A DNA stretch of 22,913 nucleotides from positions 1 through 22,913 of IMG/VR virus record IMGVR_UViG_3300037222_000159; one strand, 5' to 3'. The DNA is from a virus. Numbering within the stretch: the first letter of the stretch is position 1; every line of letters starts with the position of its first letter. Shown in pieces: positions 3,937 through 22,382 of the stretch. The notes beneath the pieces are model-generated. The model was not told where the DNA came from. It saw only the letters and a list, made by a program, of their open reading frames with translations, and did not search any database. Position numbers and translations under genes: made by a program.

Positions 3937-4725
3937 ATGAAAGTTGGAATTGTAGGATGCGGTGTAGTCGGCAGCTCAATGCTGAAGCTGTTCGAGAAAG
4001 TTCATGAAGTCCACTGCTACGACAAATACCAGACACAATTCAACTCTGAGAAAAACAAAGCGGCAATCAATGCCTGTGAGATCGTATTCATCGCAGTGAG
4101 CACACCAACTTCGGCTGACGGCCTTGCTTGCAACACTTCTGCTGTTGAGGCAAGCTGTGACTGGATCATTCCGCCAGCATGTATCCGCTCAACTGTGACC
4201 CCCGGCACGACTAGAAATCTGCAAAGCAAGAAGCGGCTGCTTGCTTTCTGCCCAGAACATCTCCGTGAGACAAAATGGGACGCTTTCCAGAATCAGTTCA
4301 TCATTGTCGGCGGTCCGCCGAGTGTGCGTGATTTAGTCATCCGTGCTTTTCAAGCAGCTCTCGGAGCAGGCACGAAGTATGTGCAGACTGATGACCCGAC
4401 AACTGCTGAGCTGTCGAAGTACATGCTGAACAATTTTCTCTCGGTCAAGGTCGCATTCTGCAATCAATACTACGACATCGCAGAGCGGTACGGTGTCAAC
4501 TACAATGAGCTGCGAGAGTTGTGGCTGCTTGATGAGCGCATCGGACGCACGCACACTGTCATCACTGAAGAGCGCGCATTCGGCGGCAAGTGCTTCCCGA
4601 AAGACATCCGCGCAATGATTGCGGTGCAGCCGGCCGCAACACTTCTGAGTGCAGCTTATGAATACAACAAGACGCTGGACAAAGAAGGCAATGACAAAGG
4701 CACCGCTGCGGACCACCGCATCTAG
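3937..4725 (+). CDS. UDP-glucose/GDP-mannose dehydrogenase-like protein, short form
   Basis: 262 aa. N-terminal Rossmann NAD site GCGVVG (7-12), STVTPGTT (85-92), PEHLRE (106-111), central helix ELSKYMLNNFLSVKVAF with Lys161 and Asn165, and GGKCFPKD with the catalytic Cys219. These are the catalytic landmarks of UGDH enzymes that oxidise UDP-glucose to UDP-glucuronate. Typical enzymes are 390-450 aa; the C-terminal UDP-binding domain is absent here, with a natural stop following. It may be a compact phage form or act on another substrate. Good SD (AGGGAG). Context with GalE and glycosyltransferases downstream suggests sugar-nucleotide supply. Confidence 0.8.
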   Translation: MKVGIVGCGVVGSSMLKLFEKVHEVHCYDKYQTQFNSEKNKAAINACEIVFIAVSTPTSADGLACNTSAVEASCDWIIPPACIRSTVTPGTTRNLQSKKRLLAFCPEHLRETKWDAFQNQFIIVGGPPSVRDLVIRAFQAALGAGTKYVQTDDPTTAELSKYMLNNFLSVKVAFCNQYYDIAERYGVNYNELRELWLLDERIGRTHTVITEERAFGGKCFPKDIRAMIAVQPAATLLSAAYEYNKTLDKEGNDKGTAADHRI

Positions 4726-4737
4726 AAAGAGGAACTG

Positions 4738-4884
4738 ATGGCTGGTTGTGGAAAACTGGCGAAGGGCACACATCCGAAAGATGATGCAGTGCCGTGCGGC
4801 ACGAAACTCTGGTTCGGACGAGACAAGAAGGCAATCATCGAAACAATTCACCTGTGCAAGCAGTGCAAAGAGGAGCAGAAGTAG
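4738..4884 (+). CDS. Small zinc-binding protein, 48 aa
   Basis: MAGCGKLAKG... with Cys4, Cys20 and a C-terminal LCKQCKEEQ pair: four cysteines spaced like a minimal zinc ribbon. AGAGGA precedes the ATG. It follows the dehydrogenase gene by 12 bases. Too short for family assignment. Confidence 0.5.
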   Translation: MAGCGKLAKGTHPKDDAVPCGTKLWFGRDKKAIIETIHLCKQCKEEQK

Positions 4885-4887
4885 CAC

Positions 4888-4917
4888 TTGCACTGCACAA
4901 CCTGATTCTGCTACAAT
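4888..4917 (+). promoter_or_regulatory. Sigma70 promoter with extended -10
   Basis: TTGCAC (4888-4893), 18-base spacer ending TGC, then TACAAT (4912-4917). The predicted start, about 4924, leaves a 29-base leader that carries the ribosome site ACGGAGG of the coiled-coil gene. It may also serve the sugar cassette downstream. Confidence 0.6.
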
Positions 4918-4952
4918 GATGTGGCACGGAACAAATCAAAACGGAGGCTGTA

Positions 4953-5399
4953 ATGGCAAATAAGGTACTGTTGGAACTTGAAGCTGTTGAGAAGATTGTG
5001 GTGGCTGATCTCCGGATCGCACTGCTAGTTGCTCAGAACAAAGTGACTGACATTGAGCGCACCGCTGAGTCTGAGTTCAAAGTTTTGCAGCAAAGGACTC
5101 AAGCACTGCATGCGGCTGCAACTGCTGAAGTGGAAGCTGCTGCTGTTGCTTTCCGCACCAAGCTGAAGTCTCTTGCTGTTGCTGCAAAGATCGACAGCGC
5201 AGACCTTCAGTTCGATGCTGAGAAGTATTTCTTTTACCTCAAGACTGAAGCGGCCACGAAAGTCGAAGATGCTGTGAAAGCAGTTGATGGCGTCATCAAT
5301 GCCGAAATCAAAGCAGTTGAAAGTGATGTCAAGGCTTCTTTCAACGCAGCGGAGCAGAAGGTCCTCGACGTTGCTGCCGAAATCAAGAAAGCGCTCTAG
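4953..5399 (+). CDS. Coiled-coil hypothetical protein, 148 aa
   Basis: Almost entirely helical: Ala/Glu/Lys/Val heptad-like repeats (LELEAVEKIVVADLRIALL, AVKAVDGVINAEIKAVESD), no Cys and no Trp. It has its own promoter and a strong SD (ACGGAGG), so it is probably well expressed. A structural, scaffold or DNA-binding coat role is possible but nothing specific is recognised. A hairpin (AGCACT/AGTGCT, about 5399-5428) follows without a U tract. Confidence 0.65.
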   Translation: MANKVLLELEAVEKIVVADLRIALLVAQNKVTDIERTAESEFKVLQQRTQALHAAATAEVEAAAVAFRTKLKSLAVAAKIDSADLQFDAEKYFFYLKTEAATKVEDAVKAVDGVINAEIKAVESDVKASFNAAEQKVLDVAAEIKKAL

Positions 5400-5477
5400 C
5401 ACTCAGCAGTCCTCTGCTTTGCAGTGCTCGGAGAGATTCGGGCACTGCATTCCAATTTCACACTTCGGAGAATCTTC

Positions 5478-5960
5478 GTGTCTGCTGCTCAATCATTTGA
5501 CTTTGTTCCGCCAACTGCTGCTACAGAAGTTGTCGGTGAAATAATCGACCGCGTGATCTACGTTCACTTCGAGAACAAAGAGGGGATCGACTCCTTTGCT
5601 TTTGAGATGGGACAGACTATCAATCACAGCACGCGTGATTTGTGGTACCCAGCATCTGATCGGAAGATGACTGTCAAGCTGCCGGATAATGCCTTTGAGA
5701 ACAAAAACCTAGAAGTGTCTTTGTGGGCGCAGTTCGACAAGAAGTGGTGGGAAGATGCTTGGCAGGGGATGCCTGAATTCATCTCTGAAGACCTTGCTCC
5801 GTGGCGCTCGATCAACGTTCACTTTGCAAAACAAGAAGACGTTGATGCGTTCGCTGTGCTTGTGGATCAGGGCATCACTGAGCTGACAAAGTGGATATGG
5901 TATCCTGAAGCGGAGATTCAGAAAGTCAATGACAAGCGGTGGGTGAGCACTCTCAAATGA
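5478..5960 (+). CDS. Two-repeat W-Y-P protein next to glycosyltransferases
   Basis: 160 aa, starting at GTG 5478 behind CGGAGA (the frame is open back to GTG 5424, but that lacks a ribosome site). Contains an internal duplication: IYVHFENKEGIDSFAFEMGQ...LWYP and INVHFAKQEDVDAFAVLVDQ...IWYP, each about 40 residues with a conserved F-x(n)-D-x-F core and terminal WYP. From memory, single-copy versions (VxF...eD...F..l.....tksiWyP) occur in phages beside the same glycosyltransferase family. Ends in ATGA overlap with the first glycosyltransferase, implying a shared function. Biochemical role unknown. Confidence 0.65.
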   Translation: MSAAQSFDFVPPTAATEVVGEIIDRVIYVHFENKEGIDSFAFEMGQTINHSTRDLWYPASDRKMTVKLPDNAFENKNLEVSLWAQFDKKWWEDAWQGMPEFISEDLAPWRSINVHFAKQEDVDAFAVLVDQGITELTKWIWYPEAEIQKVNDKRWVSTLK

Positions 5961-6793
5961 ATCCAGCTTTCCCAGTTTACGTCCCGACAAAAAGCCGCTT
6001 TGATTCACGGTTGACGATCCGCACACTTGAGGACCTCGGCATTCCGTACAAAGCAGTCGTTGAAGCGCAAGAGTTCGATGACTATGCGCGCGTCGGTGTG
6101 TTGCCTGAGAACATGCTTGTGCTGCCGCACAGAGGCAAAGGCCTTGTCGTAACTCGCAACTGGATTTGGGATCATGCACAAGCTTCCGGCACTCCATACT
6201 TCTGGACGTTTGATGACAACATCGACGGAATGTATCGGCTGAATAACAATCAGAAGATCAGGGTGAAAGACGGAGCAATTCTCAGAGCTGCCGAAGACTT
6301 CATGCAGCGGTATGAGAACGTCGCGATTTCTGGGTTTCATTACGAGTTCTTTGCTCTTCGCCGTGTTGAGCATCCGCCGTTCATGTGGAATCTCCGTGTC
6401 TACAGCAATATGCTGATCCGGACTGACATCCCTTACCGCAATGAAGGTTTCTACAATGATGACACTGACTTGTGCCTCCGTGTGATGAAGGACAAATGGT
6501 GCACAGTGCTCTTCTACGCTTTCCTCATCAAGAAGATGCCGACGATGATGTACTCCGGTGGTATGACGCCACATTACCTAGGAGAGGGTAGGCTGAAGAT
6601 GGCCGAAGAACTTGCTGCAAAGCATCCGGATGTCTGCCGCATCGTGCAGAAGTACGGGCGTGCTCAGCACGAAGTTGATTACAGTCGGTTTGAGAAAAAC
6701 TTTGCTGTGCTGAAGAAAGATGCTATCATTCCAGCTGGCATCAGTGAGTACGGCATGAAGATCGTGCAGTCACCGGAGTATGCAAAGAAATGA
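5957..6793 (+). CDS. TET-associated glycosyltransferase-like protein (copy 1)
   Basis: 278 aa. N-terminus NPAFPVYVPTKSRFDSRLT, then YKAVVEAQEFDDYA, VVTRNWIWDHA, the nucleotide-sugar/metal motif FWTFDDNIDG (DxD-like, Asp86/Asp87), VAISGFHYEF, YNDDTDLCLRVMKD (acidic cluster) and TPHYLGEGR. This pattern matches my memory of the TAGT family, which Aravind and co-workers predicted, and later work showed, to glycosylate modified cytosine in phage DNA. Start at ATG 5957 (ATGA overlap) rather than 5939. Downstream paralogue overlaps by ATGA. Substrate base and sugar cannot be read from sequence. Confidence 0.8.
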   Translation: MNPAFPVYVPTKSRFDSRLTIRTLEDLGIPYKAVVEAQEFDDYARVGVLPENMLVLPHRGKGLVVTRNWIWDHAQASGTPYFWTFDDNIDGMYRLNNNQKIRVKDGAILRAAEDFMQRYENVAISGFHYEFFALRRVEHPPFMWNLRVYSNMLIRTDIPYRNEGFYNDDTDLCLRVMKDKWCTVLFYAFLIKKMPTMMYSGGMTPHYLGEGRLKMAEELAAKHPDVCRIVQKYGRAQHEVDYSRFEKNFAVLKKDAIIPAGISEYGMKIVQSPEYAKK

Positions 6794-7722
6794 ATCCACA
6801 ATTCCCAGTTTATGTCCCTACGAAAGGCCGATGGGAAACTCGGCTGACTCTCAGCACTCTTGAACAGATCGGCGTTCCGTATAAAGCAGTTGTCGAAGCG
6901 CAAGAGTTCGACAACTATGCTCGTGCTGGTGTCAAGCCGGAGAACATGATCGTGCTTCCGCACCGCGACAAAGGCCTTGTTGTGACACGCAATTGGATTT
7001 GGGATCACGCGTGTGCGAGCGGCACTCCATACTTCTGGACATTCGACGACAACATCGACGGCTTCTACCGCCTGAATAACAATCTCAAGATCAAAGTGAA
7101 AGACGGCACGATTCTCCGCTGTGCTGAAGACTTCGTGCAGCGTTATGAGAACATTGCGATCGCCGGCTTCCACTATGCATTCTTCGCAAAGCGGAAAGTT
7201 GGACTGCCTCCGTTCATGTGGAATCGGCGTATCTACAGCAACATGTTTATCAAAGCGGATCTCAAAGAGAAAGACGACCGTCCGTTCCGCAATGAAGGCT
7301 TCTACAATGACGACACTGACCTCTGTATCAGAGTGATGAAGGACAAATGGAGCACGGTTCTGTTCTATGCCTTTCTGATCGGCAAGCGGCAAACAATGAC
7401 AGTCGGCGGTGGGATGACGCCGCATTATGTCGGAGACGGCCGCAGAAAAATGGCCGAAGAACTTGCTGCAAAGTTTCCTGGCCTTATTCGTGTTGAAAAG
7501 AAGTTTGCCAATCACGGAAGTCAGATGGATGCAGCACGCGCACCTGTTTATGCTGACGGACACATTGAGGAGAGCGATCGCGGCGCGCGCTGGCAGCACC
7601 AAGTCAAGTACACTCAGTTTGAAAAGAACTATCCGAAGCCGCGCACTGATGTTACAATTCAGCAAGGCATCAACAACTACGGAATGGTGCTTGAACAATC
7701 ACCGGAGTTTGAAAATCTATGA
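6790..7722 (+). CDS. TET-associated glycosyltransferase-like protein (copy 2)
   Basis: 310 aa, clearly a tandem paralogue of the preceding gene: the same VYVPTKGRW start, WTFDDNIDGFYRLNNN, and YNDDTDLCIRVMKDKW cluster, with long identical stretches. Differences: a short insertion (ADLKEKDDRP) before the RNEGFYNDD motif and a ~30-residue C-terminal insertion (SQMDAARAPVYADG). Conservation of all putative catalytic residues in both copies suggests two working enzymes. They could use different acceptors or add a second sugar. ATGA overlaps on both sides put it in one translational unit with GalE. Confidence 0.8.
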   Translation: MNPQFPVYVPTKGRWETRLTLSTLEQIGVPYKAVVEAQEFDNYARAGVKPENMIVLPHRDKGLVVTRNWIWDHACASGTPYFWTFDDNIDGFYRLNNNLKIKVKDGTILRCAEDFVQRYENIAIAGFHYAFFAKRKVGLPPFMWNRRIYSNMFIKADLKEKDDRPFRNEGFYNDDTDLCIRVMKDKWSTVLFYAFLIGKRQTMTVGGGMTPHYVGDGRRKMAEELAAKFPGLIRVEKKFANHGSQMDAARAPVYADGHIEESDRGARWQHQVKYTQFEKNYPKPRTDVTIQQGINNYGMVLEQSPEFENL

Positions 7723-8666
7723 GAGTCCTCGTGACAGGTGGTGCCGGATACATCGGAAGTCATGCCGCGCGTGCGCTGAAGAAAGCTGGCTTTGAAGTTG
7801 TCATTTACGACAACCTCTCAACAGGACACAGAAGCAATGCACGCGGCTTTGAGCTGTGCACAGGCGACATCAGTGACCGCTATACGCTCATGTCTGTGCT
7901 CAGTGATGTTGATGCTGTGATGCACTTTGCCGCCAGTGCTTATGTGGGTGAGTCTGTTACGAATCCGCGGAAGTATTTTGACAACAATGCGATTGCAGCA
8001 ATGACTTTGCTGAATGCTGTTACTGACAGCGGCATCAAGAAATTCGTGTTCTCATCGAGCTGCGCTGTGTACGGTGTGCCGCTGGCGTCAGAGCAGCCAA
8101 TCACTGAAGAGTGTCCGCGGATCCCAGTCAATCCGTACGGAGCATCAAAGCTGTTCTTTGAGAATGCTCTTGAAGCGTACAGCACAGCATACGGCTCGCG
8201 CTCTGTGAGTCTGCGATACTTCAATGCTGCCGGTGCTGACGAGAGCGGAGAGCTGCAAGAGAAGCACGATCCTGAAACACACCTGATTCCATTAGCATTC
8301 GCTGCTGCAAGAACAGGGCCGAGACTGCACGTGTACGGTGATGATTATCCGACACTAGATGGGACTTGCATCCGCGATTACGTTCATGTGAATGACATCG
8401 CTGATGCACATGTCCGTGCATTGCAGTATTTAGAAATCGGCGGTGAGACATCAGCAATGAACATCGGCTCAGGCCGTGCTACATCAGTTTTTGAAATCAT
8501 TCGAGCAGTTGCAGAGCACACACACCGCACTGTGCGGAGCACAATTGTTCCGCGTCGTAAAGGTGATCCACCGCAATTGATTGCGAGCTACGCGAAAGCG
8601 CGTACAATTCTTAGCTGGACACCGAAGCGAAATCTCAAAGACATCATAAGGACAGCAGCAGTATGA
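7719..8666 (+). CDS. galE: UDP-glucose 4-epimerase
   Basis: 315 aa, near full length for the family (about 320-340). Extended SDR features: GGAGYIGSH NAD-binding loop (7-15), CTGDISD, MHFAA, SSSCAVYG with the catalytic Ser (112-119), and YGASK with catalytic Tyr140 and Lys144. LRYFNAAGA, RDYVHVNDIADAH and NIGSGRATSV complete the pattern. The enzyme interconverts UDP-glucose and UDP-galactose (or the GlcNAc/GalNAc or uronic-acid forms). Directly after the two glycosyltransferases with an ATGA overlap, it probably supplies or tunes their donor. Confidence 0.9.
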   Translation: MRVLVTGGAGYIGSHAARALKKAGFEVVIYDNLSTGHRSNARGFELCTGDISDRYTLMSVLSDVDAVMHFAASAYVGESVTNPRKYFDNNAIAAMTLLNAVTDSGIKKFVFSSSCAVYGVPLASEQPITEECPRIPVNPYGASKLFFENALEAYSTAYGSRSVSLRYFNAAGADESGELQEKHDPETHLIPLAFAAARTGPRLHVYGDDYPTLDGTCIRDYVHVNDIADAHVRALQYLEIGGETSAMNIGSGRATSVFEIIRAVAEHTHRTVRSTIVPRRKGDPPQLIASYAKARTILSWTPKRNLKDIIRTAAV

Positions 8667-15404: not shown

Positions 15405-15480
15405 GCCGGTATAGCTCAGCTGGTAGAGCTGCGGTCTTGTAAACCGCGGGTCGGGAGTTCGATTCTCTCTGCCGGCTCCA
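15405..15480 (+). tRNA. tRNA-Thr (anticodon UGU)
   Basis: Full cloverleaf: acceptor GCCGGTA/TGCCGGC with one G-U pair, D-arm TAGCTCAGCTGGTAGAGC, anticodon loop CTTGTAA giving TGT (reads ACA), T-arm with GTTCGATTC, discriminator T and an encoded CCA. Such phage tRNAs adjust decoding to phage codon use. A GC-rich hairpin (CATCC/GGATG inside GCGGAA/TTCCCGC, about 15357-15392) lies just upstream; TATACT at 15348 could be a -10, but no clear -35 is seen. Confidence 0.95.
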
Positions 15481-18778: not shown

Positions 18779-19459
18779 ATGAAGCAGTTTGCTATCGCAG
18801 TTCTCTTTCTGTCCTTGTGTTTGCCTTTATCAGCAGCTCCACGCCACCCTGCAAAAAGTGAGCAGAGCAAGGCAGCTCACAGGATTGAATTCCTGATACC
18901 AGAAGCTGCTGCCAGTGAAGAGCAGTTGTTTCCAAGTGCTGCCAGTAAGGGTGCTTGCAGCTCTAGTGCGATCGGTCCGCATGCGTTATTGACAGCGCAG
19001 CACTGTGATGTCGGTGAAGAGTATTTGACTGTTGACCTTGACCTTGCACCACGAAAGATTGTTGGGCGGATCACTGACGGGGAAGATCACATAATTTTTC
19101 TCGTCGACGGACCAAAGTTCAAGAACACTATGGCTGCTGAGTATGATCCTGACACTTACACCGCGCCGACAGTTGGTGAAAAAGTGTTTTTGTTCGGCGA
19201 TGGCGCCGCAATGTTTCCCCCACAATACCGCACCGGCTATTACACCGGCTCAACAACAATTGAGGGTGCTGATGCTTCAAAGGATCCTGTTGTGATGCTG
19301 TTCGATCTCAACATCATTCCAGGTGACAGCGGTTCAGCAGTCTACGGTTCAAACGGAAAACTCGTAACTCTTGTCACTTATGGAGTTGAGGGCAAGTTTT
19401 GCGGCGCATACAGGATGATGTTCACAGCAGCACAAGTTGCTCACGCTGAGACGTTCTAG
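18779..19459 (+). CDS. Secreted trypsin-like serine protease
   Basis: 226 aa. Signal peptide MKQFAIAVLFLSLCLPLSAA with likely cleavage near residue 19-20. Then the chymotrypsin-fold landmarks: LLTAQHC with His75, DHIIFLV with probable Asp103, and PGDSGSAV with nucleophile Ser184. Cys60 and Cys76 are placed for the usual disulfide. All three catalytic residues are visible, so it is probably active, acting in the periplasm or outside the cell. It lies alone behind its own promoter and structured leader, between the large terminase and the portal. Unlike head-maturation proteases it is exported, suggesting a host-surface role or a cargo gene. Confidence 0.85.
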   Translation: MKQFAIAVLFLSLCLPLSAAPRHPAKSEQSKAAHRIEFLIPEAAASEEQLFPSAASKGACSSSAIGPHALLTAQHCDVGEEYLTVDLDLAPRKIVGRITDGEDHIIFLVDGPKFKNTMAAEYDPDTYTAPTVGEKVFLFGDGAAMFPPQYRTGYYTGSTTIEGADASKDPVVMLFDLNIIPGDSGSAVYGSNGKLVTLVTYGVEGKFCGAYRMMFTAAQVAHAETF

Positions 19460-19558: not shown

Positions 19559-19696
19559 ATGTCCGGCTCTAAGAATCCGTTTTTCGGGCGGAAACACAAG
19601 CCGGAATCAATAGCAAAAGCGAATGCAGCACGAGCAGCAAGGCGTGCAGCAAAGAAGGAGGCTACTCTTGAACTGGCTCACACGCATGTTCAATAG
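19559..19696 (+). CDS. Small basic protein, 45 aa
   Basis: MSGSKNPFFGRKHKPESIAKANAARAARRAAKKEATLELAHTHVQ: Lys/Arg/Ala rich, helical. It is read from the portal promoter and its 3' end overlaps the portal start (TTG 19668) by 29 bases in another frame. The start lacks a clear SD. The internal AAGGAGG near its 3' end is the portal's ribosome site. Function unknown. Confidence 0.45.
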   Translation: MSGSKNPFFGRKHKPESIAKANAARAARRAAKKEATLELAHTHVQ

Positions 19697-19786
19697 CGCA
19701 ACCGCCGATCAACCTGAGAAGAGAACGAGTTTAGAAAACCCACAAACTCCTTTATCCTTCCCGGCTGAGTGGTTGCTCGACATCTT
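19668..19786 (+). CDS. Portal protein, exon 1
   Basis: TTG 19668 follows AAGGAGG by 7 bases and gives MNWLTRMF, the usual portal N-terminus (M-x-WL-x-R-L/M-F). It continues SLENPQTPLSFPAEWLLDI and reaches the split codon TT|C for Phe40. Genomic reading would hit TAG at 19794, eight bases past the splice site. Residues 1-39 plus two bases of codon 40 are encoded here; the rest is in exon 2. Confidence 0.75.
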
Positions 19787-20020
19787 TTCTGTATAGTTGG
19801 AGATGTATAAACCCTGTCTGATTGACTCGAACGCTGAAATGCCAACGAGGCGGAAGATTTAGAAATTGTGTACTACTTTTTCTTAATCACCGTGAGAGAC
19901 TAAGCGATGGGGCACCGAAAGGTGATGCAATAGTCCGAACATTACGGGAACAAGTAACCGTAAGAAGCTGACGGAAACGAGCAGCTCTGTGCACAGTGCA
20001 CAGTAACAAGAAGGCAACGG
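19787..20020 (+). ncRNA. Group I self-splicing intron in the portal gene (no ORF)
   Basis: About 234 bases. P1: exon CATCTTT (19781-19787) pairs with GGAGATG (19799-19805), giving the required U-G pair (U19786·G19800) at the 5' splice site. P3 CGCT (19832)/AGCG (19903). P7 GACTA (19898-19902)/TAGTC (19931-19935) within the R- and S-like blocks GAGACTAAG and CAATAGTCCGAAC. P8 CACC-GAAA-GGTG (19913-19924). P9 TTACGG/CCGTAA (19942-19963), P9.1 AGCTG/CAGCT (19966-19986), P9.2 CTGTGCA/TGCACAG (19987-20003). Terminal G at 20020. P10: exon CGG with 5'-TTG. Splicing restores an uninterrupted portal frame. Confidence 0.85.
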
Positions 20021-22382
20021 CGGACGGACTGATAGCGGGATACGCGTATCAGAAATGACGGCCCTTCAGGTGGGCACTGTGTTCTCTGCGGTGAACATCA
20101 TCTCTGACGGTGTGTCTTCACTGCCGGTGCACGTCTATCAGAAAGCAAAGATTGCAGGCCGTGCGAGCAAGAGCATTGCAACTGACAACGTACTGTACGA
20201 TCTCATCAACAAAGAACCGAATCCTGAAATGACCAGTGCAGTCTTCTTCAAGACGCTAATGGTTCATGACCTGCTCTGGGGCAATGCATACGCCGAGATT
20301 CAGTTGAACAATAGCGGAGCAGTCTGCGGCATCTGGCCGCGCAACCCCGCACGCACGCGCCCGATTCGTATTCTGAAGCCGTTGCTGTTCTCCGGTGACT
20401 TGCTGCCGGCAGGCACTCTGATGTTCGAGACTTCAGATCAGTTGATGGATTCTTCGAGTTACGTTGTAGACCAGAATCCTGATATGCAGAATGTCGGCAC
20501 AAAGCGCCTTGTGCTTGCTGAGAATATGATTCACATCCCCGGGCTTTCACTTGACGGCCGTCTGGGGCAGAGCACAGTGTGGCTTGCACGGCAAGCTTTC
20601 GGACTTGCTCTTGCAACTGAGAAGTACGGCGCGAAGTTCTTTGGTAACGGTGCGCGTCCTGCAGGCATCTTGACATTGCCGAGCAAGCTTGAAGACAAAG
20701 CGATCGACACACTGCGCCGCAGTTGGGCTGAAGCACACGGCGGAGAGAATCAATTCAAAGTCGCAGTGCTTGAGCAGGGTGTGAAGTACGAGAAGATTGC
20801 AGCAACACCTGAAGAGGGACAGATGCTTGAGACACGCCGTTATGAGCGTGAAGAAATCTGTGCGATCTTCGGTGTACCTGCTCACATGGTTTGTGCGCAA
20901 GAGAAGGGCGGCAAGTCGAACGTAGAGCAGAGCAGCATTGAATTCGTTCTCTACTGCTTGCATCCTTGGCTGAATCGCTATCAGCAAGAGTTCGGCCGCA
21001 AACTATTCTCTGGTATCGGACGCTCTGCCGGCAAGTATGAAGTGCGCTTCGATACACGCAAGCTGATGTATCCTGATGCTGCTGCACGCTCAACATTCTA
21101 CTCGCAAGGCAAGCAGTGGGGATTCTTGAACACGAACATGATTCTTGAACTTGAAGACATGAACCCTGTTGAAGACGAGAAAGTCGGAGAGACATTCTGG
21201 CAACCGATCAACATGCAAGATGCCGGCGATCCGCAGAAGCTGGGTGCAGAAGATCAAGCAGCGATCGACACGAAGAAAGCAACTGATGTCGCAGAGCACG
21301 CCGCGCAGATGGCACAAGAGACGGCGGCTGCTGCTACGAAGAACCAGATGAAAGCTGCTGAGCAGGGTCACGGGCACGCAATGGAAGCTGCTAAGGTCAA
21401 CAATGTCCACACACAGAAGATGGCAAAGCTTGCACCGCAGAGGGTTGCTGCTGCCGCGCCTGCTGCCGGTGCTCCTGGAGATGCCCCTGCTGCTCCGGCT
21501 ACTGCTGCGCCACCTGCTAAGCAGATTAAACGCTTTCTGAACCATACGGAAGTGCGCTCAGCAATGGCAGAAGCACTTTCTGAAGGCTTCTTCTTCATCA
21601 GTGCTGCAACTATCGGCAGTGAAATCAGTTATCGCTACGCTCGGCCGGATCATGCTGAGCTGTTCATCGTTCACGCGCCGTGCAAGACTTTAGAGCAGTG
21701 CTTCATTGAAGGTATTGCCCCAGAAGAGCGCGGTAGCAAAGCGAGGGCAATGACTAAAGATTATTCAAAGACATTGCTGGTCATGAGACACGGACAGACG
21801 GCACTTGATCCAGTTAAAATTTCTGATGGGTGGCTTGACTTTCCATTGAGTGATGAAGGTCGCGTCCGGCTCATTACCGCTCAACAGTATTTGAAGAATA
21901 TACCGCTGAAGAATATCTATGCTTCAAGCTTGAAGCGCACAGCAGAGACAGCAGCAATTGTTGAGTCCGGCAATGTTTCTAATCAGAGGCCGGTGATTCA
22001 TATTGTAGACGCAGCAAGAACATGGAACCTTGGTGAATTGTCTGGCACTTCAAAGAAGGAGTCTAGACCGATAGTCGAGGACTTTATGAAGAATCCGGAT
22101 AAGGTTCCTGTTGGAGGAGAATCTAGAAATGATTTTCTTGAAAGATTCCTTCCGTGGTTAGAAAGTATGAAAGCAGAAGTAAGCACCGGCGGAGGTCCGA
22201 CGTTGCTTGTTATGTCTGGCAGCAATTTGCGTGAGTTGTCTACATCAATGACTGGGGACATGGAGACTTGGGATTTATCTGAGGGTGGTCTTCTAGTTCT
22301 TACTTTTGCGAATGGAGTATGGCTCGGTAATGTAGTCTTCGGGCTTCGCGAGGCAGATGATGATACACAGCGAATTTCATAA
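20021..22382 (+). CDS. Portal protein, exon 2, fused to a histidine-phosphatase-like domain
   Basis: After splicing the protein is 826 aa: exon 2 resumes GRTDSGIRVSEMTALQ, the normal portal continuation; the first ATG in exon 2 (20055) is internal. Portal region to about residue 430 (VFSAVNIISDGVSSLPVHVY, NPARTRPIR, HIPGLSLDGRLG, ARPAGIL, FGVPAHM) forms the ring through which DNA enters the head. Residues 430-545 are an Ala/Gln/Pro linker. A histidine phosphatase/phosphoglycerate mutase-like domain ends the protein: VMRHGQT (His630), YASSLKRTAETA, GGESRNDFLERF and VMSGSNLREL. The last motif usually has SHGG; here the second His is Ser772, so activity is doubtful. Confidence 0.88.

Follow-up and report, generated by a model that had tools for sequence, protein, structure and literature searches.

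A Phosphatase-Fold Domain Without Its Second Catalytic Histidine at the C-Terminus of a Viral Portal Protein: Putative Exchangeable Virion Cargo

The Portal Gene and Its Neighborhood

The window (the whole stretch of 22,913 nt analyzed here) is a linear virus record of 22.9 kb, with terminase subunit genes upstream of the portal gene. A single open frame (20055-22382) encodes both an HK97-type portal and a histidine-phosphatase domain, with Pfam matches well over cut-off at residues 8-368 (PF04860, E 5e-90) and 574-751 (PF00300, E 1.7e-22) of this ORF; the second comes from the His_Phos_1 search suggested in a first-pass annotation, which had proposed the fusion from the nucleotide sequence. 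That annotation gave the portal 826 residues, close to the about 828 found once a 228-nt insertion is removed (Table 1). Rfam gave no match for the insertion, though its removal restores the portal frame; in one relative (L015) the equivalent site is occupied by a 229-nt insertion, and portal N-termini are interrupted there in several relatives. The small domain at 21528-21677 is separate from the phosphatase domain, and no MuF family match was found in the portal ORF.

Other features of the window include a tRNA-Thr (TGT) between the terminase subunit genes (15405-15480) and, between the large terminase and portal genes (18779-19459), a trypsin-like protein with a signal-peptide-like start, below the Pfam cut-off. 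Further upstream, a UDP-glucose dehydrogenase-like gene, two similar glycosyltransferase genes and a nucleotide-sugar epimerase (3937-8666) are possibly a DNA hypermodification cluster; the one glycosyltransferase of the two that was tested is a TET-associated glycosyltransferase (PF20691).

Table 1. Portal gene features and the downstream linker in the window.
Feature	Position	Strand	Comments
Portal exon 1	19668..19786	+	Putative TTG start preceded by AAGGAGG; ...RTSLENPQTPLSFPAEWLLDIF; splices to uninterrupted N-terminus of relatives
228-nt insertion, group I intron-like by eye	19787..20014	+	Excision restores DIF-NGGRTDSG of intronless relatives
Portal exon 2 with C-terminal putative cargo domain	20015..22382	+	Open frame up to stop 22380-22382
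Phage_portal core, PF04860	20076..21158	+	E 5.2e-90; PHROG 12 portal 4.5e-101
Ala/Gln-rich portal C-terminal tail and linker	21222..21527	+	Common to relatives whether or not they carry the phosphatase domain
Small alpha-beta-beta-beta domain, 50 residues (KRF...YRYxxPD)	21528..21677	+	Portal end in L003, L007, L010, L015
Histidine-phosphatase-fold domain, second catalytic His absent	about 21765..22346	+	PF00300 E 1.7e-22; Z 22.9 to 4ij5, 21.9 to 1h2e
RHG motif with usual nucleophile His	21786..21794	+	Invariant among fused domains
Second pocket Arg (SSLKR)	21936..21938	+	Invariant
Acid Glu (GGES)	22119..22121	+	10/11 rows of alignment A4
SGSN replacing SHGG	22215..22226	+	Second His replaced by Ser, then Ser-Asn; Ser 10/11, SN 11/11 rows of A4
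ENHDEKGQFTS linker in next ORF (22401 to contig end)	22836..22868	+	Linker type preceding effector modules in relatives

Fold and Catalytic Residues

The predicted fold is clearly that of a branch-1 histidine phosphatase: an AlphaFold2 model built with 15 aligned sequences (mean pLDDT 84) aligns over 190 residues with phosphoserine phosphatase 4ij5 (Z 22.9, rmsd 2.5) and nearly as well with PhoE (1h2e; Z 21.9). The structure prediction called for by the first-pass annotation thus gives a strong match to histidine phosphatases, not the lack of one that it had named as evidence against its reading.

Within this fold the RHG histidine, the second pocket Arg and the acid Glu are present. The canonical position of the second catalytic His is occupied by Ser (TCT 22215-22217) within VMSGSNLR, as had been claimed from the sequence. 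The Ser was assigned by PDB profile alignment (1h2e) and ungapped alignment to cellular homologues; anchoring instead on the “SN” of a related stand-alone gene (L030, below) puts Gly (22218-22220) at this position, and the segment is without His under both alignments. Because of this absence, the window domain is treated here as a homologue by fold and descent rather than as a catalytic member. It is like the known branch-1 enzymes (PhoE 1h2e, 4ij5, CobC, dPGM) in fold (~190 residues), RHG, second Arg and GGES Glu, and unlike them in its Ser at the second His, in SGSN for SHGG, and in being fused to a portal.

Fused Domains in Related Portals

In relatives collected by portal searches of IMG/VR and GTDB contigs, the same in-frame, single-ORF fusion recurs in ten distinct cases (L008, L009, L012, L017, L018, L019, L026, L150, L151, L215), for 11 distinct fused domains with that of the window; L013 and L032 are near-copies of L012 and are not counted as distinct. 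Portals in this group of uncultured phages often bear the domain. This recurrence, from the survey of other portals that the annotation had recommended, disposes of a sequencing error joining two genes. The phosphatase domain alone as query yielded no new members in viral_contigs, and only weak matches in the phages collection.

Counting sequences rather than independent events, the second His is missing in 9 of the 11 distinct fused domains, vs. one of 38 cellular homologues drawn from proteobacterial genomes. It is retained in L008 (VFHTSN) and L215 (ITHSSA), so that its loss is no family rule, and also in L030 (CHSN), where a related domain is encoded by a separate gene directly after the portal. 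An 11-row alignment (A4), which predates L215 and counts L012 and L013 separately, has R9, H10 and R59 invariant and E120 in 10 rows, at an identity to the window of merely 25-32%. One of these rows has the second His, vs. 37 of the 38 cellular homologues, and all 11 have SN, found in none of the 38; the HSSA of L215 makes SN common, not universal, in the fused family. The residue after the Ser is Arg in 8/11 rows, and Gly in the window.

Some further observations concern individual relatives. The extreme end of the domain, D[TS]LAG[ST], is conserved in eight of them (L009, L012, L013, L017, L018, L019, L150, L151) and missing from the window, L008, L026 and L215. L150 and L151 are phage-like contigs in a Methanoregulaceae bin (MAG); an archaeal host was considered and is not supported, since the only match among 150 genomes of the order is that bin itself, making misbinning likely. 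L059 (2499-3893) encodes an AbiEii nucleotidyltransferase fused to a histidine phosphatase that looks complete, the gene lying upstream of a distant portal, and in L148 (3866-5809) the portal is, by eye, apparently fused to a ClpP-like protease.

Descent and Exchange of the Domain

With motif columns excluded, the fused domains group together in one clade, apart from the cellular ones (support 99/95), which persists when the L030 stand-alone gene and L215 are added (96/95), and these trees show common ancestry of the fused domains. Independent capture of the window domain from a host is not supported: it falls within this clade, on a long branch, grouping with L030 (98/95). Loss of the second His takes at the fewest two changes on the tree, suggesting that it was lost to Ser at least twice, tentatively, because the window and L030 are both long branches. 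The His in L008, L215 and the L030 gene suggests that the ancestor of the family was probably an enzyme.

The portal and domain have diverged to very different extents. Between the window and L008, L009 or L012, identity is 82-85% in the portal and 32-36% in the domain (for L009, 85 vs. 32%). The portals nearest to that of the window, those of L003, L004 and L007 (up to 90% identical), have no phosphatase domain; that of L004 carries a JAB-like domain (below the Pfam cut-off) instead. Mapped onto the portal tree, presence of the domain changes seven times, and well-supported branches force a minimum of five of these changes. Comparison of these portals thus shows gain, loss or replacement of the domain between nearly identical proteins. 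We read the pattern as cargo exchange or replacement, the alternative being fast divergence. Tree conflict was rejected as clean proof of exchange, since it is significant on one side only: the grouping seen in the phosphatase tree is rejected by the portal data (AU p 1.2e-5), but that of the portal tree is not significantly rejected by the phosphatase data (p 0.079). The first two trees, built without outgroups, gave no conflict.

The Interval Between Portal and Prohead Protease

In relatives, the gene for an S78 prohead protease lies near that of the portal, and the interval between them holds effector-type sequences: an ADP-ribosyltransferase in L008 (E 1.7e-9), ParB-like sequences in L010 (weak Pfam match) and in L013 and L032 (by eye), JAB-like domains in L003 and L004 that share 48% identity with the one fused to the L004 portal, HExxH metalloprotease-like sequences in L007 and L015 (by eye), and a 2H domain in L015 (E 9.5e-9). 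Many of these are preceded by a recurring linker, EDQPRDPDGKFASG or similar. Of 280 long ORFs, 24 contained the linker pattern, against none of the shuffled ones, the pattern having been derived from those same sequences; the portal matches of L012, L013 and L032 (ENFRTLNVGDF) are part of the phosphatase domain rather than linkers, which brings the true number to about 21. In the window the contig ends just after the linker of the ORF following the portal. No linker directly precedes the phosphatase domain, and the connection between the two is therefore positional only.

Discussion

Domains of the 2H, PBECR, Nudix and ART types are known fused to portals or MuF proteins, with packaging and injection proposed (PMC5512222, PMC9503650, PMC5576092). 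The window ORF resembles these portal-fused effectors and polyvalent proteins (PMC5512222, PMC9503650) in carrying an effector-type domain on the portal C-terminus, in one chain, variable or absent among close portals, and in sharing its interval with ART, ParB-like, JAB-like, metalloprotease-like and 2H domains; by architecture the domain fits this class. It differs in its histidine-phosphatase fold, unmentioned there (“histidine phosphatase” is absent from the text of PMC9503650, and “phosphatase” from PMC5512222 and PMC5576092), and in that most members here are without one catalytic residue. The first-pass view that this is not a standard arrangement therefore stands for the histidine-phosphatase domain and not for portal-fused effectors as such, which had already been described (PMC5512222, PMC9503650). 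Literature searches found no portal-histidine phosphatase fusion, which is not proof that none exists. MuF polymorphic toxins (PMC5576092) likewise have swapped C-terminal domains beside the portal and a proposed DNA-coupled delivery; the window ORF differs in having its domain on the portal itself, with no MuF detected. Stand-alone histidine phosphatases of phages and giant viruses (e.g., Tenacibaculum phage PTm1) have the same fold and, among the matches listed, are not portal-fused.

The reading we favor, with confidence and doubt about equally balanced, is that the portal C-terminus is an exchangeable, virion-borne cargo of histidine-phosphatase fold that binds, or slowly turns over, a phosphorylated ligand. 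Because portal C-termini face the capsid interior (P22; PMC12005531), about 12 copies of the domain would be built into the head, accompanying the other effectors of the portal-to-protease interval. A pocket that retains RHG, Arg and Glu should be able to bind a phosphoryl group, and may form a phosphohistidine; with the second His lost, turnover would be slow or nil, leaving a phosphatase-derived binder or trap. It is this combination, an invariant nucleophile side of the pocket and a missing second His, that favors a binder or slow enzyme. The domain might act on its ligand during assembly or, were it cleaved off and ejected, as infection begins; that portals normally remain in the particle counts against this reading. 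The sequence gives no hint of the ligand. Conversion of a phosphatase to a binder does happen, as in flea acid-phosphatase-like proteins (PMC10728186) that lost catalytic His (one has Ser at the second) and became ligand binders; these differ in belonging to the acid-phosphatase branch, in being secreted animal proteins, and in having lost the first His too.

Another possibility, which we consider rather unlikely, is that the cargo is a working phosphatase, in which the Ser, a neighboring residue or another group substitutes for the second His, and which hydrolyzes a phosphorylated metabolite, nucleotide signal or protein. The nucleophile His, both Args and the acid Glu are retained, fused L008 and L215 and the L030 neighbor gene have the second His, and the Arg after the Ser in most rows could provide charge, although the window has Gly there. 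In rat fructose-2,6-bisphosphatase, replacement of a catalytic His by Ala reportedly costs less than tenfold activity (as cited in PMC10728186), so that Ser need not abolish it. Against this reading, Ser cannot stabilize a phosphohistidine in the same way, and the His is retained in 37 of the 38 cellular homologues.

Alternatively, the domain may be a structural or assembly part, its fold decorating the portal inside the capsid, where it would bind scaffold, protease or DNA, and its pocket a relic. Its place in the portal chain is consistent with this, as is the C-terminal portal barrel of P22, located where ejection proteins gather (PMC12005531). We think it unlikely: portals up to 90% identical do without the domain or have another, and the pocket residues are invariant despite divergence of most of the domain. 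Invariance of the pocket while very similar portals lack or swap the domain favors cargo over a purely structural part. The first-pass annotation had offered a structural role, binding of phosphorylated ligands, or an enzyme; the evidence speaks for exchangeable cargo with a preserved phosphate pocket rather than for the purely structural role, with binding and weak catalysis not separable here.

It is improbable that the frame yields two products, a portal and a free phosphatase-like domain, by an internal start or putative proteolytic cleavage. A GAGGGCA followed by ATG (21750-21752) lies just ahead of the domain, the S78 protease is encoded nearby in relatives, and the L030 domain is a separate gene; but the GAGG-to-ATG spacing is short, and relatives inspected have no conserved start at that place. 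That the domain is a decaying, functionless remnant of a captured phosphatase is barely credible, despite the lost catalytic residue and a branch very long compared with that of its portal, given the frame intact in ten distinct relatives, the conservation of RHG, Arg and (in 10/11) Glu, and a dN of 0.32 vs. a dS of about 2.5, near saturation, between L009 and L012.

A more specific form of the cargo reading, which we regard as distinctly unlikely, is that the portal ring presents some twelve trapped phosphoryl acceptors, a stoichiometric sponge (e.g., for a defense signal or phosphoprotein), His having changed to Ser at least twice; if true, this would be a virion-borne binder made by breaking an enzyme. 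More generally, the putative cargo domain would add to the known repertoire of portal-fused effectors a phosphate-binding fold in which a catalytic residue has mostly been lost and the pocket kept. Members with and without the second His offer a natural contrast for the question of enzyme, binder or structure.
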